A DNA stretch of 64,000 bases, taken from NCBI GenBank assembly GCA_903904755.1, contig CAIVDV010000009.1, forward strand, positions 186,001 to 250,000, written 5' to 3'. The stretch is from an uncultured Acidobacteriaceae bacterium. Its GTDB lineage: Bacteria; Acidobacteriota; Terriglobia; Terriglobales; Acidobacteriaceae. This document shows positions 33,368 through 45,209 of this stretch, piece after piece; within the stretch, counting starts at the first letter, position 1, and every line of letters starts with the position of its first letter. A program made the position numbers and the translations under genes. Under the pieces are notes generated by a model. That model did not search any database, was not told the origin of the DNA, and worked only from the letters and a program-made list of their open reading frames with translations.

Positions 33368-34639
33368 CTAGGCGGAAAGCCCTTCCGCCTCCCCATAAAA
33401 CGCATACGGATTCAAAAACTGCCTCCCCCAGAAAAACCGCCGGTCCGCCTCCGTCAGCCGCGCCTCGTCGCACACCTCGCCCCAGTGCCGCCGAATCAGC
33501 TCAACCTGCCGCCGCGCAATCTCCGTCGCCGCCTCCTTGGAAAGCAGAAAATTCGGCGCAGCCGCCAGGCAAACATCCAGCCGGCTCAGCCGCTCCCGCC
33601 CGTGGATCAGCATCGCCTGCGACGCCTCATTGCCCGTCCTCGGCTGCGGGCAAATGTCATAGGCCGGCGTCAGCGTCAGCTCCCGCCCATCCCAGAACGC
33701 TGCATGATTCCGCGCATGATCGTCCGTATTCCCGCACAGGATATTGAAGACCAGCCGCCCGAACAGCTCCCGCAGGGTCTCGGCGGGGCGGATGAAGCGG
33801 TGGCGGATGATTTCAGCCAGGTCCTGGTAGCTGGCGTACTGGGCCATCATTTCGTCGAGCGCAAACAGCGTCAGCGCCGAGACCATTGCCTTCCTGCGCC
33901 ATCCCCCTGGCACAAGCTCCCTGTCAAACCGCTCCACCAGCAGCACATCCTTGCCCAGCGCCGCCGTCAACTCCACCCGCGCAACGTTCAGCCCCACCAC
34001 GCTCGCCAGCCGCATCGCCACAAACTCTGCCTTCACCACGTTGTACAGATCGTTCGAGGTCGAAAACTTGGCAATCAGCTTCCGGCCGCCGTCGGTCAGC
34101 ATCGCCTTGGGCCGCGCCCCGCCCAGCGACGACCCATGCTGCAGCGCCTTGTCCAGCTCCGGCTCCAGCGGAGTTCCCCGCTCCACCCGCTCCGCCGACT
34201 CCATCAGCTCTGCCAGTGTCGCCTGGTCGGTCACCCGCGGCCTGTATTCCGTCGCTGAAGCCTGAAAGTCCAGCGCGCCGGCGCGGTCGGAGCCGGATTC
34301 GAGCAGGTAGGTCAGCTCGTCCAGCTCAGTACTGGCCGCAGCCGCACCCTTCAGCCCCAGCCGGCGATTGATGATTACCCGGCGTCCCCACGCATCCGGC
34401 GAGCCATCGCGCAGGCACCCGGGCATCGCAAGCCCCGGCATCGGCGGAATATCCCCCGCCCGCAGCGGCAGTTCCGGCGCGTAAATCGGGATTGCATTCG
34501 CCCGCGCCAGGTAGCTCTTGCCGTAGTTGAAGCGCAACTGGCCCCGGTCCCGCGTCAACAGCCCGGCCACCACCGGCTCAGTCGCCTCCGGCAGCCATAT
34601 CCATACATACGCCTGCCCCGGCTCCGCGCTAGAAGTCAT
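33368..34639 (-). CDS. hipA: HipA-family serine/threonine kinase toxin
   Basis: 423-residue HipA-like kinase. In characterised systems HipA phosphorylates glutamyl-tRNA synthetase and induces dormancy; the antitoxin is HipB. Here the N-subdomain 1 is at residues 8-110, ATP-binding region at GSSLGGARPKAML (about 168-182, Gly-rich loop) with KLIAKFS, the catalytic loop is GNTDDHARNHA (about 308-318) and the metal-binding loop TPAYDICPQ. All catalytic residues appear present. Its ATG lies within hipB, overlapping by 11 nt, so translation is coupled to the upstream antitoxin. Convergent with glgE with only 3 nt between stops, so the two genes have no room for separate terminators. Confidence 0.9.
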   Translation of the reverse strand: MTSSAEPGQAYVWIWLPEATEPVVAGLLTRDRGQLRFNYGKSYLARANAIPIYAPELPLRAGDIPPMPGLAMPGCLRDGSPDAWGRRVIINRRLGLKGAAAASTELDELTYLLESGSDRAGALDFQASATEYRPRVTDQATLAELMESAERVERGTPLEPELDKALQHGSSLGGARPKAMLTDGGRKLIAKFSTSNDLYNVVKAEFVAMRLASVVGLNVARVELTAALGKDVLLVERFDRELVPGGWRRKAMVSALTLFALDEMMAQYASYQDLAEIIRHRFIRPAETLRELFGRLVFNILCGNTDDHARNHAAFWDGRELTLTPAYDICPQPRTGNEASQAMLIHGRERLSRLDVCLAAAPNFLLSKEAATEIARRQVELIRRHWGEVCDEARLTEADRRFFWGRQFLNPYAFYGEAEGLSA

Positions 34640-34985
34640 CGTTCACAGCCCTTCTCGGCTTGCGCACCCTGGTCGGCAGCAGGCTCAGCTTTTCTCCCGC
34701 AGCGGCGCGCCGGGCACTCAGTCGGTCCCTCTCCGCCTCGCTCAACGGGTCGGCATCAAACAGTGCCACGCCGGTAATCGCTGCCGCCTCAAAATACGCT
34801 CCAATCGCGCACCCAGGATCTCCCCTCTCCATGCTCTGGATCAGCCACCGCGAAACCCCCATCCGCTCCGCCATCTCCGTCGCGGTAATCTTGCGCTCGA
34901 TTCGTCCCGCGCGAATCAGTTGCCCCAGCATCGCAATCGCCTCAAGGCTATAGCGGGAGTAGGCGCGATTCTTTGGCTTGGCCAT
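34629..34985 (-). CDS. hipB: HipB-like XRE antitoxin/repressor
   Basis: 118-residue helix-turn-helix protein encoded directly before hipA. The XRE domain is at about residues 13-65 (QLIRAGRIERKITATEMAERMG, then SRWLIQSMERGDPG). The C-terminal half, rich in Arg and Ala, is probably the part contacting HipA. I start at ATG 34985 (MAKPKNRAYS), with GGAG a few bases upstream; an in-frame ATG at 35057 would add 24 Cys/Glu-rich residues not typical of the family. Expected to neutralise HipA and repress the operon at the AT-rich promoter just upstream. Confidence 0.85.
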   Translation of the reverse strand: MAKPKNRAYSRYSLEAIAMLGQLIRAGRIERKITATEMAERMGVSRWLIQSMERGDPGCAIGAYFEAAAITGVALFDADPLSEAERDRLSARRAAAGEKLSLLPTRVRKPRRAVNDDF

Positions 34986-35098
34986 GGATGCTCCGATTCC
35001 GGGGCGCTCCCTTGCGCTCTCCTCGCAACAGCACCCCCAGCACACATCCTCTCGCATTCCCGCATCCGCGTCAACGCATATTGCTTAATAAACCACTC

Positions 35099-37809: not shown

Positions 37810-37857
37810 GGGGAGTTGGCTCGGCTGAGGCCGACGCGCTTGGTACACTTGCTGGCA

Positions 37858-38616
37858 ATGATTCCCCTTGGTTCGCATCCCGCCTGGCACCCGGTGCTGG
37901 AGACGCTCGCCTATGCCTGCGGCTATGCGCTCTACCGCCGGCTGCGGGCGCGGCGGGGGGATTTCCTCCCCGACGCCCAGCGCTGGAATGTGATTGCCGC
38001 AGCAGCAGTCGGCGCTCTCGTAGGCAGCCGAGTACTCGGCCTTGCCGAGCAGTTCCCCACCCTGCTGGCGGCGTGGCGGGCCAGCCATCTCCTTGCGCTC
38101 ATCCTCACCCCCGGCGGCAAAACCATCGTCGGCGGCATCCTCGGCGGCTGGCTCGGCGTGGAGGCGATGAAGCGCCTTTCCGGCATCCGCCAGCGCACCG
38201 GCGACCTCTTCGTCTTCCCCCTCTGCCTGGGCATTGCCATTGGCCGGGTGGGTTGCCTGGTGGCGGGGCTGGCCGATGACACCTACGGCCTGCCAACCAA
38301 CCTGCCCTGGGCCGTGGACCTGGGCGACCACATCGGCCGCCATCCCTTACAGGTCTACGAAATCCTCTTCCTCGCCACCGTCACCCTCACCCTCCATCTC
38401 CTCCGCCACATCACCCTCCCCGAGGGCGCACGCTTCCGCATCTTCCTCGCCGCCTACCTCTCCTGGCGTCTCGCCATTGACTTCCTCAAACCGCAGCCCC
38501 TCGTAGCCGGCCTCAACGTCATCCAGTGGTGCGCACTTGCCGCCCTCGCATGGCTCGCAATCGGCGCCGCGCGTCACGCCACCTCTCGCACCCGCAGCAA
38601 GGAGAGTAAGGCATGA
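37858..38616 (+). CDS. Prolipoprotein diacylglyceryl transferase-like membrane protein
   Basis: 252-residue, seven-helix membrane protein resembling Lgt, which attaches diacylglycerol to lipobox cysteines. Recognisable Lgt-like features: a GGKTIVGGILGGWLG segment at the position of the HGG motif, GIAIGRVGCLVAGLADDTYG at the place of the IGRxGNFxNGExYG signature, and RHPLQVYE for RHPSQLYE. The key His and Asn of true Lgt (HGG, GNF) are changed, so this is probably a paralogue with altered activity; a housekeeping lgt is expected elsewhere. TACACT (37844-37849) lies 8 nt before ATG 37858, a leaderless arrangement. Its stop overlaps the next ATG (ATGA) and three small membrane genes follow. Confidence 0.78.
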   Translation: MIPLGSHPAWHPVLETLAYACGYALYRRLRARRGDFLPDAQRWNVIAAAAVGALVGSRVLGLAEQFPTLLAAWRASHLLALILTPGGKTIVGGILGGWLGVEAMKRLSGIRQRTGDLFVFPLCLGIAIGRVGCLVAGLADDTYGLPTNLPWAVDLGDHIGRHPLQVYEILFLATVTLTLHLLRHITLPEGARFRIFLAAYLSWRLAIDFLKPQPLVAGLNVIQWCALAALAWLAIGAARHATSRTRSKESKA

Positions 38617-38885
38617 AAGCACCCTGGTCCTACTTCCAAGGCTTCCCCAAGATGATTGTCCTCAGCGTCTCCGTGCTGCTGGTTTCGGGCGGCATGTGCG
38701 GCGTGCAGTTGATCTTCGGTAACGAGATTTACAACGGTAAGGTGCCCGGGTCCGGCCTCCTCATGCTCCTCGGCCTGACCGAGTTGCTCGTGATGGGTGC
38801 CGCAGCTCTCGTACTCCTCTTCAGCCTCATCCTGTGGCCCATCTCCGCGCTCCTTGGGCAAACCAAACGGGAGGACGGCCAATGA
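38613..38885 (+). CDS. Small two-helix membrane protein, CGVQ paralogue 1
   Basis: 90-residue protein of unknown function. First hydrophobic helix (about 14-36) ends in SGGMCGVQ; second helix at about 52-78, short basic tail. Closely similar to the next two products in helix placement and in the C-G-[VL]-Q motif. Starts within the stop of the Lgt-like gene (ATGA overlap) and has AAGGAGAG upstream, so translation is coupled. The Cys after a signal-like helix recalls a lipoprotein, but the preceding residues (SGGM) do not fit a lipobox. Confidence 0.75.
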   Translation: MKAPWSYFQGFPKMIVLSVSVLLVSGGMCGVQLIFGNEIYNGKVPGSGLLMLLGLTELLVMGAAALVLLFSLILWPISALLGQTKREDGQ

Positions 38886-39157
38886 AAACTCCCTGGGCCA
38901 ACCTGGAAGGCTACCCGCGCGCAATCGTGCTGGCGGTCTGTGTACTGCTGGTCTCCGGCGGCATGTGCGGCGTGCAGGCGGTAGTTGCGAATATGCCGAA
39001 AGCTCCCGGATTTCTGTTGCCAATCTTCACCATCCTGGGTGCGTTCGAGTTGCTTGGAATCGGTGCCTCCGCGCTCGTGCTCGTCATTTGCCTGGTTGCC
39101 TGGCCGATTTCTGCGGGAATGCGGCGGGGTAGCAAGCAGAAGAGTGAGGGGGAGTGA
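38882..39157 (+). CDS. Small two-helix membrane protein, CGVQ paralogue 2
   Basis: 91-residue protein, the nearest relative of the preceding product: N-termini KAPWSYFQGFPK and KTPWANLEGYPR align, as do LLVSGGMCGVQ and the second helix ending LVAWPISA against LILWPISA. Overlaps the previous stop by four bases (ATGA). Clearly a tandem duplicate. Function unknown. Confidence 0.75.
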   Translation: MKTPWANLEGYPRAIVLAVCVLLVSGGMCGVQAVVANMPKAPGFLLPIFTILGAFELLGIGASALVLVICLVAWPISAGMRRGSKQKSEGE

Positions 39158-39162
39158 GCGAC

Positions 39163-39408
39163 ATGGCTACCGGGTGGAGTAGAAGCCAGATCTTTGCCAA
39201 AGGAACGGTAGCCTTTGCTGCGCTGTTTGTTCTGTCGGCGGGGACCTGTGGATTGCAGATCTCGCTGGAGAGGAGCGGTAACGCCGGCTTAATCCGGTTC
39301 ATGGATGGAGCTGGAGTGCTTGCCATCTATGGAATGGCCTTTGCAGTGGTTGGGCTGGCGATTTGGCTGGCAATCTGGGCGGTGGTGGCAATTTTCGTGC
39401 GGAAGTAG
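39163..39408 (+). CDS. Small two-helix membrane protein, CGLQ paralogue 3
   Basis: 81-residue, more diverged third member: LFVLSAGTCGLQ at the end of helix 1 and a second helix ending LAIWAVVAIFVRK. ATG 39163 is preferred because GGAG (39151-39154) sits 8 nt upstream; a GTG at 39154 overlapping the previous stop is the alternative and would add three residues. Last gene of the Lgt-like cluster. Confidence 0.7.
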   Translation: MATGWSRSQIFAKGTVAFAALFVLSAGTCGLQISLERSGNAGLIRFMDGAGVLAIYGMAFAVVGLAIWLAIWAVVAIFVRK

Positions 39409-39528: not shown

Positions 39529-40086
39529 ATGCTGAAACAGAAGCTGATTGCGTTGGCGGGAGCGGTGGGGATTTTGGCATGCGGGGCCTGTTTTGGGCCG
39601 GGGGAGTATCATCCGCCACCGCCGCCACCAATCGTCAAAGAGAGAATCCGCACCCTCCGGGTTATCGTGACGGATGACTCTGCGGAAAGGCATGTGGATG
39701 CAAGCGCGCTGGAGGCGCTGGTGGTACGGCAGATGAATGCACTGGCGGGCGCGGATGGCTTGACGGCGTACTCGCATGACCAGGAGATGGCCAGGGTGGA
39801 TGCGGTGCTACGGATTCGGCTGACGGCGGGCAATGCGCGGATGCGGAGGCCGGCAGCGGAAGGTATGTCGGCCGAGTGGGTGGTGCATCTGGGCGTTGCC
39901 GAAGGGTTGACGCGGGCCGATGGAAGCCAGGTGTGGCAGCAGGCGGTTCCCGATATTCCGATGGACGCACGATTATCGGCTGAAAGGCAGGAAGATGTGT
40001 GGAAGGACCATGGGGTGTTGGGACGGCTGGCGTATCGGCTGGCGAAGCAGGCAATTGAGATGGACCGCGGCCACGCGCAGCACTGA
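39529..40086 (+). CDS. Putative lipoprotein of unknown function
   Basis: 185-residue exported protein. Signal sequence with a lipobox-like GILAC (Cys 18), then a Pro-rich stretch with a run of six prolines (HPPPPPP), then a compact alpha/beta domain with a Ser/Asp-rich beginning and amphipathic helices. I do not recognise the family; the general pattern recalls DUF4136-type acidobacterial lipoproteins but without shared motifs that I can see. TAGAAT (39517-39522) lies 6 nt before the ATG, so the message is probably leaderless. The Lgt-like cluster ends 120 nt upstream. Confidence 0.6.
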   Translation: MLKQKLIALAGAVGILACGACFGPGEYHPPPPPPIVKERIRTLRVIVTDDSAERHVDASALEALVVRQMNALAGADGLTAYSHDQEMARVDAVLRIRLTAGNARMRRPAAEGMSAEWVVHLGVAEGLTRADGSQVWQQAVPDIPMDARLSAERQEDVWKDHGVLGRLAYRLAKQAIEMDRGHAQH

Positions 40087-40147: not shown

Positions 40148-41572
40148 ATGACCACCAAGCAGCGGCCGTACCTGTTTTACGATGTGGCGATTTCCATCTG
40201 CTCCACCTGCTACAAGCGCGTCGACGCGAAGATTGTCTTTGAAGACGGCAAGGTCTGGATGCTCAAGCGCTGCATGACGCATGGCTCCCAGCGTGTCCTG
40301 ATGGCCGACGACATCGACTACTACCGCCGCGCCCGCGAAGTCTTCATCAAGACCCCCGAGCAGCCCATGGTCTACAACACTCCGGTCAAATACAGCTGCC
40401 CCTACGACTGCGGCCTCTGCCCGGACCACGAGCAGCACTCCTGCGTCACCCTGCTCGAAATCTGCGACGCCTGCAACCTCACCTGCCCCGTCTGCTTCGC
40501 AAACAGCGGCCAGCACCGCAAGGAATTCCGCTCCCTCCCCCAAATCGAAGCCATGCTCGACTGCATCGTCCGCAACGAGGGCGAACCCGACATCGTCCAG
40601 GTCTCCGGTGGCGAGCCCACGCTGCATCCCGATTTCTTCCAGATCCTCGACATGTGCAAGCAGCGCCCCATCCGCCATCTCATGGTCAACACCAACGGAG
40701 TCCGCATCGCCCAGGACGAGGACTTCGCCAAACGCCTCGCCACCTATATGCCGGAGTTCGAACTCTACCTGCAGTTTGACTCGCTGAAGCGGGAGCCGCT
40801 GATGCAGTTGCGCGGTGCCGACCTGCGCAGCATCCGCGAAAAGGCTCTCGACCGCCTAAACAAACTCGGCATCTCCACCACCCTCGTCGTCACCGTCGAG
40901 CGCGGCGTCAATGACCAGGAACTCGGCGAAATCATCGAGTTCGGCCTCCAGCAGCCCTGCGTCCGCGGCGTCACCTTCCAGCCCGTCCAGGCCGCCGGCC
41001 GCGTCACCGGCTTTGACTCCTCCCAGCACCGCCTCACCCTCACCGAAGTCCGCCGCCGCATCCTCGAGCAAACCAGCACCTTCCGCCCGGAAGACCTCAT
41101 CCCCGTCCCCTGCCACCCGGATTCCCTCGCCATGGCCTACGCCCTCAAACTCGACGGCAAAACCATCCCTCTCTCCGGCATGATCGACCCGGCAGTGCTC
41201 ATCAACGGTGCCCGCAACACCATCGTCTACGAGCAGGAGAAAGGGCTCCGCGACCACATCTTCAAGCTCTTCGCCACGAACCACTCCCCACAGGGTCAGG
41301 CCCGCAGCCTCAAAGAGCTCCTCTGCTGCCTCCCCAAGCTCCTCGTCCCCCAAAATCTCGGCTACAAAAACCTCTTCCGCATCCTCATTGTCCAGTTCAT
41401 CGACGCGGAAATCTTCGACCTGCGCAGCGTCAAAAAGAGCTGCATCCACATCGCCCATCCCGACGGCAAGCGGATTATGCCGTTTGACACCTTCAACATG
41501 TTTTACCGGGATGAGCTGGAGACCACGCGGCTGGCGGCGCTGCGGGAGGGGCAGTTGGTTGAGCGGGGTTAG
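40148..41572 (+). CDS. Radical SAM protein of the tetraether/membrane-spanning lipid synthase family
   Basis: 474-residue radical SAM enzyme of the MJ0619/Tes-like group. The SAM cluster motif is CNLTCPVC (Cys 109, 113, 116). The N-terminal extension has the extra cysteines of this group: CSTC (18, 21), KRCMTHG (42), then SCPYDCGLCPDHEQHSC (about 85-101). QVSGGEPTLHP follows as the SAM-binding GGE motif. Archaeal Tes joins two lipid tails through sp3 C-C bonds to make tetraethers; bacterial relatives have been linked to membrane-spanning diabolic acids, which are abundant in Acidobacteria. That role is inferred here. Start ATG follows GAGGAC by good spacing. The 3' end is overlaid by an AGCGGGGTTAGCGG repeat. 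Confidence 0.82.
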   Translation: MTTKQRPYLFYDVAISICSTCYKRVDAKIVFEDGKVWMLKRCMTHGSQRVLMADDIDYYRRAREVFIKTPEQPMVYNTPVKYSCPYDCGLCPDHEQHSCVTLLEICDACNLTCPVCFANSGQHRKEFRSLPQIEAMLDCIVRNEGEPDIVQVSGGEPTLHPDFFQILDMCKQRPIRHLMVNTNGVRIAQDEDFAKRLATYMPEFELYLQFDSLKREPLMQLRGADLRSIREKALDRLNKLGISTTLVVTVERGVNDQELGEIIEFGLQQPCVRGVTFQPVQAAGRVTGFDSSQHRLTLTEVRRRILEQTSTFRPEDLIPVPCHPDSLAMAYALKLDGKTIPLSGMIDPAVLINGARNTIVYEQEKGLRDHIFKLFATNHSPQGQARSLKELLCCLPKLLVPQNLGYKNLFRILIVQFIDAEIFDLRSVKKSCIHIAHPDGKRIMPFDTFNMFYRDELETTRLAALREGQLVERG

Positions 41573-44670: not shown

Positions 44671-44779
44671 AAATGAGTAAATAGTTTAACTGGCCTTCAG
44701 GCCCTGAGGTTTTGCCTTTGCGGGTCGCCACGTCACTCACCGTTTGGGCGAGCTTTGGTATGCTTCCCGGTAACATTCC

Positions 44780-45209
44780 ATGCCTACTTATTCCATCACC
44801 CTCGTTTCCCACGGGCGACGCGCGATTTTTTGTCAGAGCCGCGAACGCTGAGTTGCTGATGCAGACGCTCTTCCGGTACCGGGAGACTGGCCGGTTTGCG
44901 CTCCACGGATTCGCGATTATGCAGGAACACGTTCATGTTCTACTTACCCCGCTCGGAGACAACACCATTGAGCGATGCGTTCAACTCATCAAAGGCGGGT
45001 ATTCGTACACCATACGGAAGCAGTTTCCCGGGGAGGTTTGGAACAGTGGGTACCACGATCATCGAGTGCGTGACCGAGAGGATTTTGAGAATCAGTTGAG
45101 GTATATCGCGGATAATCCTACGCGGAGGGGATTGAAAGAACACGAATTCGTGCACACGCGATTTCCGTGCGTAATGGATTCGATACCGGGGTATTTGGTT
45201 GATTCGTAA
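44780..45209 (+). pseudogene. Frameshifted RayT transposase (Y1/HUH)
   Basis: HUH-type tyrosine transposase. The conserved part is in one frame: the His-hydrophobic-His motif EHVHVLLTP, the catalytic tyrosine helix IKGGYSYTIRKQF, and the end RYIADNPTRRGL. The family's normal N-terminus is in another frame, from ATG 44780 (MPTYSITLVSHGRRAIF), and stops shortly after. The two frames join if one T is removed from the six-T run at 44826-44831, giving a coherent protein of about 142 residues. So either the gene is inactivated, the run is a programmed slippage site, or there is a sequencing error. A TTG-started frame from 44712 lacks the family N-terminus and is not believed. Confidence 0.75.

Follow-up and report, generated by a model that had tools for sequence, protein, structure and literature searches.

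Enzymes that couple lipid tails into membrane-spanning lipids form the background to the gene considered here; they include Mss, the bacterial membrane-spanning lipid synthase reportedly described by Sahonero-Canavesi et al. in 2022, and the archaeal enzyme Tes (GDGT-MAS, MJ0619). Extracts of PMC13274423 report that Mss shares the catalytic architecture of Tes, and that iso-diabolic acid is abundant in 17 acidobacterial cultures of subdivisions 1 and 3; a passage of PMC10087280 gives it as not detected in Solibacter. In the part of their text drawn on here, Lloyd et al. describe Tes as having a rubredoxin site, an N-terminal cluster and, at the C-terminal end, a cluster whose Met439 is labile and a sulfur of which binds a substrate carbon, with Tyr459 strictly conserved in archaeal Tes and a bacterial phospholipid among the molecules that the enzyme binds (PMC9433317). 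The general idea that bacterial Tes homologues are lipid synthases is not new, because Zeng et al. proposed such homologues, acidobacterial ones being named in the extract cited, for branched GDGT synthesis (PMC8941075). Passages of that paper and of PMC11868695 use similarity cut-offs on bacterial Tes relatives as evidence for membrane-spanning lipids and for sources of branched GDGTs.

The window, by which we mean the whole stretch of 64,000 nucleotides that was analysed, comes from an uncultured member of the Acidobacteriaceae and carries a radical SAM gene among the features listed in Table 1. A sequence-only reading had called its product a homologue of Tes/MJ0619, and this is upheld by the fold and by the only strong relative in the PDB by sequence, Tes/GDGT-MAS itself (7tol, E 7.9e-66). 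Pfam recognises a Radical_SAM domain (6e-22) and an HMPTM zinc ribbon (1.7e-16) in the protein; SPASM is absent from its Pfam matches, and SPASM-type NCBIfam models cover roughly the radical SAM core, far below their cut-offs. An AlphaFold2 model based on an alignment of 50 rows (pLDDT 85.5 on average, with residues 358-400 below 50) superposes on Tes 7tom at Z 44.0 over 406 aligned residues (rmsd 2.9, 32% identity, TM 0.80), while the next radical SAM folds, SuiB, MoaA and SkfB among them, score below Z 20; on this basis the predicted structure is that of a Tes-fold protein. Identity to Tes in structural alignments is ~28-32%. A search with the NCBIfam Tes model (NF045702) gives 271.3 bits, which speaks for homology but not for membership, the curated cut-off being 450 and the TrsS model (NF045646) scoring higher; with 312.2 bits TrsS is the top-scoring model, itself below a cut-off of 490. 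Within a superfamily already known, the protein stands on a branch of its own, and it probably acts on lipids.

Table 1. Features of the locus, with positions in the window; residue numbers are those of the radical SAM protein unless Tes is named.
Feature	Position	Strand	Remarks
Lgt-like integral membrane protein	37816..38616	+	266 aa from TTG; in-frame ATG at 37858 is an alternative start; PF01790, 77.5 bits
Small membrane protein 1	38613..38885	+	90 aa; LVSGGMCGVQ; ATGA overlap with the Lgt-like stop; no Pfam match at E 0.01
Small membrane protein 2	38882..39157	+	91 aa from ATG 38882 (in-frame GTG 38834); LVSGGMCGVQ; ATGA overlap; no Pfam match at E 0.01
Small membrane protein 3	39154..39408	+	84 aa; GTG start; VLSAGTCGLQ; GTGA overlap; no Pfam match at E 0.01
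Lipoprotein-like ORF	39529..40086	+	185 aa; signal peptide ending LACGAC; no Pfam match; accessory
Radical SAM protein, Tes/TrsS superfamily	40148..41572	+	474 aa; ATG start
Rubredoxin-like/zinc-ribbon site C18, C21, C42, H45	40199..40282	+	54/54 rows; columns of Tes C9, C12, C33, H36
N-terminal auxiliary cluster motif C84, C88, C91, H94, with invariant H97, C99	40397..40444	+	54/54 rows
Radical SAM motif CxxxCxxC, C109, C113, C116	40472..40495	+	54/54 rows
C322 (PVPC)	41111..41113	+	Invariant in 54/54 clade rows
C393-C394, clade-specific CC pair	41324..41329	+	53/54 rows; columns non-Cys in other groups
Changed [Fe4S4]C region: S431 (Tes C455), C432 (Tes C456), D447 (Tes C470)	41441..41488	+	54-row alignment

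Residues at the metal sites were compared with those of Tes in an alignment of 54 rows, in which three genomes are entered twice (L156/L117, L157/L080, L158/L086) and the cut ORFs L162 and L163 are omitted. The rubredoxin-like site, the N-terminal auxiliary cluster motif and the radical SAM motif follow one another in the Tes order, as had been noted from the sequence, and the N cluster shares the columns of Tes C73/C77/C80/H in all 54 rows; the same motifs are invariant in the 50-row alignment (the window and 49 orthologues) and are therefore not there by chance. The three acidobacterial TrsS-like rows (L007-L009) each have Cys in place of H36 of the rubredoxin site.

The C-terminal cluster is another matter. 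We infer, from conservation in the other groups, that Cys338, Cys455 and Cys470 are the [Fe4S4]C ligands of Tes, the portion of PMC9433317 behind this set naming Met439 only; all three are kept in 11/11 Koribacter-like, 9/10 ~700-residue, 3/3 acidobacterial TrsS-like and 13/13 phylum-sample rows. The window clade has Ser or Thr in the Cys455 column in 53 rows and Ala in the remaining one, so that cysteine is kept in 0/54, and Asp or Glu in the Cys470 column throughout (54/54); the Cys338 column retains Cys in nine of the 54 rows and is Ser in the window. Tyr459, kept in 9/10 rows of the ~700-residue group, gives way to Ile, Met or Val in all 54. C432 is invariant in the clade, and the C322 column is also Cys elsewhere (9/11 Koribacter-like and 3/3 TrsS-like rows). 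These changes suggest that the C-terminal cluster may have been re-ligated, possibly with a carboxylate, although the C393/C394 pair lies in the low-confidence stretch of the model, 358-400. Loss of Met439 was considered as an argument against Tes function and dropped: the column is Met in 31/54 clade rows, and an extract of PMC9433317 has the M439A variant of Tes active.

The tree in which the protein was placed took in the window type, 11 Koribacter-like, 10 ~700-residue and three acidobacterial TrsS-like proteins, 13 Tes-family proteins from the sample of the phylum of G307 (a record named Symbiobacteriaceae) and, as the one archaeal Tes, MJ0619; it holds no characterised Mss and omits the cut ORFs L162 and L163. 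'Koribacter-like' is our label for the group above the Tes cut-off, and rests on identity levels told in an extract of PMC8941075, not on named sequences. The window type forms a single clade with support 100/100 (26 rows, two genomes being counted twice), its sister is L173 (100/95) and the TrsS-like proteins come next (100/100), L173 and the TrsS-like proteins being among the long branches that the tree program flagged. MJ0619 and both acidobacterial Tes-like groups are split from the clade at 100/99, and a smaller tree agrees. Two proteins of the G307 phylum sample (L157, L174) belong inside the clade and the 13 others outside. The protein is placed beside the TrsS-like proteins, outside the branch that unites MJ0619 with the two acidobacterial Tes-like groups.

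The distribution of the window type is patchy and wide at once. At an identity of at least 67% it occurs in 5/61 relatives (G000, G002, G010, G019, G020), and further in 14/100 genomes of Flavobacteriaceae and 8/244 of a sample of the cyanobacterial phylum, a 33% relative in G557 being excluded from the type. A scan of named genomes was seeded with two peptide patterns and so samples the closer members of the clade; of 100 confirmed loci 80 were retained, with identities of 54-84% and labels that read Acidobacteria, Planctomycetota, Cyanobacteria, Bacteroidota (many of them Flavobacteriaceae) and others, although some labels of metagenome-assembled genomes may be wrong; named isolates with the locus include Terriglobus roseus, Bryocella elongata, Cellulophaga tyrosinoxydans and Flavivirga algicola. 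One of these loci (L136) had no full match and was dropped ahead of the counts over 79 loci given below. The megaplasmid pPP1 of Persicobacter psychrovividus (L155 3256-5562) bears an lgt-like gene, the radical SAM gene and a small-protein gene where the PLSDB table lists no gene, and one member of the Flavobacteriaceae (G280:C7 758591-758975) retains a remnant of the radical SAM gene with stop codons, from which it appears that the locus has been lost in places.

The same genome encodes a second Tes-family protein, of 697 residues (L002 1225-3318, G000:C32), to which the Tes model gives 322 bits, the window protein getting 271. The group to which it belongs (10 rows) has no N-terminal auxiliary cluster motif and has Met in the Met439 column in 10/10. 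With the window protein as query, the ~700-residue type was found in 32/37 genomes of the family, two of the 32 being cut, and not in G015, G023, G032, G034 and G036. The Tes model finds a match at E <=1e-80 in 143/151 genomes of the class, among them every one of the 29 from the window's family, a count of best matches of whatever type, and the Tes cut-off is passed in 15/151. For the occurrence of iso-diabolic acid reported from cultures, a patchy gene such as the one in the window is a poorer fit than a widespread one; as a candidate for coupling fatty acids in acidobacteria, the 697-residue protein is to be preferred. Elsewhere, L189 1038-9817 (G495) has two more Tes-family radical SAM genes right after genes for a ketoacyl synthase and an acyl carrier protein, with SDR and dehydratase-like genes (by eye) also preceding them, and is possibly an unusual fatty-acid cluster.

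What sets the window type apart is the company it keeps. An Lgt-like gene lies within 1.5 kb of the radical SAM gene in 67/79 loci and within 3 kb in 73/79, in several phyla, against 0/24 Koribacter-like, 0/23 ~700-residue and 1/18 TrsS/Bacillota loci in 1.5-kb flanks, where the first two lists each hold one place twice and contig ends truncate two of the 24; the lone exception is the sister lineage L173, with its Lgt-like gene directly after the radical SAM gene. The two genes share a strand in 73 of the 74 loci that have a match (the exception is L114), and overlap or stand no more than 60 nt apart in 33 of the 74. They are also present and absent together: Lgt-like matches accompany the radical SAM gene in 5/5 acidobacterial relatives that have it and 0/56 that do not (E <=7e-47 against >=1e-10), in 14/14 and 0/86 Flavobacteriaceae genomes (E 2e-95 against 1e-9) and in 7/8 and 0/236 genomes of the cyanobacterial sample (8e-50 against 6e-12; the exception is G511), kinship being ignored in all three comparisons. 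One Lgt-like copy each in the Flavobacteriaceae (G252) and the cyanobacterial sample (G525) has an in-frame stop. The six loci without an Lgt-like gene within 3 kb are L066 and L106, where the contig begins ~1.8 kb and 394 bp upstream, respectively, L123, with a match ~6 kb away, L139, itself a partial match, and L109 and L115, with no match at the locus; L109, L115 and L139 each have at least 4 kb of upstream sequence.

The gene had been described as a single one that its surroundings do not otherwise explain. That description is ruled out by a conserved operon of Lgt-like and small-protein genes, the latter with helix-end cysteines in 65/79 loci, and by the shared presence and absence. The lipoprotein-like ORF was considered as a core part and rejected, homologues being found in only 4/79 related loci (L063, L066, L067, L101). 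By eye, the recurring neighbour groups listed for the loci contain no protease-like gene. Elsewhere in the window, a HipA-like protein and an adjoining HTH protein (33368-35057, minus strand) are likely a toxin-antitoxin pair, and a single IS200-like Y1 transposase-family ORF (44712-45209) is presumably of the REP-associated type. Our searches of the open-licence PMC literature found no description of a locus joining lgt-like, radical SAM and small-protein genes, and an extract of PMC8939145 does not describe one either.

In its predicted structure the Lgt-like protein is a relative of Lgt, but it lacks residues required in E. coli Lgt. It scores only 23.7 bits with TIGR00544, for which the cut-off is 118.9; its AlphaFold2 model (pLDDT 89.9) matches E. 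coli Lgt (5azb) at Z 13.4, the next best structure reaching 6.2. The genome has a canonical Lgt match of its own (G000:C68, 31% identity), a row kept outside the residue counts, which cover 68 copies, namely the window and the loci with an ORF of 220-330 residues. In all 68 R143, E202, Y235 and R239 are kept, while His103 (of HGGL) is replaced by Val, Met, Leu or Ile, Asn146 by Cys and Met100 by Lys. Residue roles are taken from extracts of PMC4728403 and PMC8689077, the second of which reports His103 and Asn146 as both required in E. coli Lgt. On this pattern of retention and replacement the paralogue likely handles phosphatidylglycerol and may use another base or acceptor.

Between the lgt-like and radical SAM genes, or just downstream of the latter in other loci, lie short ORFs for membrane proteins; in the window there are three after the lgt-like gene, each in a 4-nt overlap. 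A small transmembrane ORF is present at 73/79 loci, and in 65/79 there is one with a cysteine at the helix end and positive charge before the helix, the other 14 having no ORF with this motif. The helix-end cysteine occurs in 91/117 small ORFs and in 23/169 control ORFs, a difference (p 8e-29) that is descriptive only, since the motif was defined after viewing the sequences and the controls, taken farther off on the same strand of the same loci, may include non-genes. The helix ends vary, with ISLGICG-like forms often in Flavobacteriaceae and LLNAACW-like forms in others, and the mean net charge falls from +3.0 ahead of the helix to +0.2 behind the cysteine, a topology on which, by an extract of PMC8689077, Lgt acts. 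The canonical lipobox [LVI][ASTVI][GAS]C occurs in just 3/91 of the motif-bearing proteins; position -2 is Gly or Ala in 74/91, and position -1 is Gly, Ala or Ser in 20/91. As judged from their sequences, these proteins have the topology of Lgt substrates without the box. Eleven of the small proteins were compared with Pfam and none reached a cut-off, three flavobacterial ones giving weak, sub-threshold matches to DUF4064. In L190 4948-5244 (G414), beside lgt-like and radical SAM genes, the protein that bears a helix-end ICG has an N-terminus rich in Cys and His, which looks zinc-finger-like by eye.

An account of this locus has to join an Lgt paralogue, a Tes-fold radical SAM enzyme and at least one small membrane protein (~60-110 residues) with an extracytoplasmic cysteine at the end of its helix, and the whole looks like an undescribed membrane-modifying system instead of an iso-diabolic acid synthase. 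Our tentative reading is that it modifies lipids or lipidated proteins, the paralogue loading a diacylglyceryl group and the radical SAM enzyme altering or coupling the chains. By analogy with Lgt, the paralogue would take diacylglyceryl from phosphatidylglycerol and transfer it to the cysteine at which the small protein's helix ends. Signal peptidase II has a rule on the residue that precedes the cysteine; because this residue rarely fits, the small protein would keep its helix after lipidation. At the cytoplasmic face the radical SAM enzyme, if it acts as Tes does, would make a 5'-deoxyadenosyl radical, take a hydrogen from the end of a chain and then couple or otherwise modify that chain, so that the lipid anchor would end up cross-linked or spanning the membrane; the enzyme would be Tes-like in its fold and in its radical start, without the C-terminal cluster as known from Tes. 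The fullest version of this proposal is a cross-phylum system in which a paralogue lacking His103 lipidates a helix-end cysteine that is not cleavable, and a Tes-fold enzyme with a re-ligated cluster couples or caps the acyl chains into protein-anchored membrane-spanning or chain-crosslinked lipids; we think it rather unlikely to hold in all these particulars.

What chiefly speaks against plain thiol lipidation is the loss of His103 and Asn146, which are missing from every operon copy, and for this reason the step may be wrong. The strongest rival accordingly has a non-protein acceptor: in a small-molecule lipid pathway the paralogue would place diacylglyceryl on, for example, a glycerol hydroxyl to give an ether, the radical SAM enzyme would modify the chains and the small proteins would be scaffolds or regulators. 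The replacement of His103, with the gain of an invariant lysine at position 102 and cysteine at 147, suggests another base or acceptor, and the failure of the small proteins tested to reach any Pfam cut-off is consistent with such a role; yet a helix-end cysteine recurs in small proteins that are otherwise unlike, and a scaffold needs none. We consider this pathway unlikely, if a serious contender. It is less probable again that the system resembles those of RiPPs, with the radical SAM enzyme modifying the small membrane protein itself, for instance at its cysteine. In its favour, the small proteins are short, variable and at times in tandem, with a radical SAM enzyme next to them, and SuiB, MoaA and SkfB are among the next folds after Tes, but peptide maturases stay below Z 20 where Tes reaches 44, the SPASM models match little beyond the radical SAM core, and none of the recurring neighbour groups listed looks, by eye, like a protease.

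That the enzyme is a Tes/Mss-type synthase, making iso-diabolic acid or branched tetraethers by joining two fatty acyl tails, the role first put forward for it, now seems improbable. The Tes fold over nearly its full length, the earlier proposals for bacterial homologues, the bacterial phospholipid bound by Tes and the methionine kept in over half of the Met439 column argue for it; against it stand the separate clade, the uniform replacement of Cys455, Cys470 and Tyr459, the patchy occurrence among relatives, the better-scoring and more widespread ~700-residue type in the same genome and the occurrence of the gene in Flavobacteriaceae and in the cyanobacterial sample. To our knowledge neither Flavobacteriaceae nor cyanobacteria are known for iso-diabolic acid. 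We give least credence to a TrsS-like function of unknown chemistry that adjoins the lgt-like gene incidentally, in spite of TrsS being the nearest NCBIfam model and the TrsS-like proteins neighbours in the tree: the score falls well short of the cut-off, and the linkage to the lgt-like gene is not incidental. We take a DVU_1556-type methyltransferase neighbour to be a marker of TrsS loci, and a homologue is found in 1/79 loci of the window type, directly downstream in L115 (8001-9461), a clade member that has no lgt-like gene and may connect the two systems. Among the acidobacterial TrsS-like genes, those of L007-L009 (G003, G005, G013) are followed by a methyltransferase gene of this type, in L007 with an AhpC/TSA-family protein after it, and the methyltransferases of L008 and L009 are 82-88% identical to that of L007.

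The locus lends itself to test, the question being whether the Lgt paralogue and the Tes-fold enzyme act together on a tiny membrane protein. It matters also for screens based on similarity cut-offs, which the window clade could enter, at its level of identity to Tes and with its C-terminal cluster changed, and so mislead.

Compared with Tes/GDGT-MAS (MJ0619, 7TOL, 7TOM), the window protein shares the fold, the rubredoxin-like site, the N-terminal auxiliary cluster motif and the radical SAM motif, but differs in the residues of the C-terminal cluster, in the absence of Tyr459, in forming a clade of its own and in sharing an operon with an Lgt paralogue. It may still have Mss-like chemistry. 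The Koribacter-like and ~700-residue acidobacterial groups are homologous, but sit on other branches and are without the Lgt-like neighbour. TrsS, a radical SAM (seleno)protein, supplies the top model and the neighbouring branch; however, its acidobacterial relatives keep Cys338, Cys455 and Cys470, and an Lgt-like gene is next to almost none of the TrsS/Bacillota loci. Lgt and its paralogue have in common the fold and the residues R143, E202, Y235 and R239, and part at His103, Asn146 and Met100. The small proteins, finally, are like lipobox proteins in their charged n-region and hydrophobic helix, but nearly all lack the canonical box itself.
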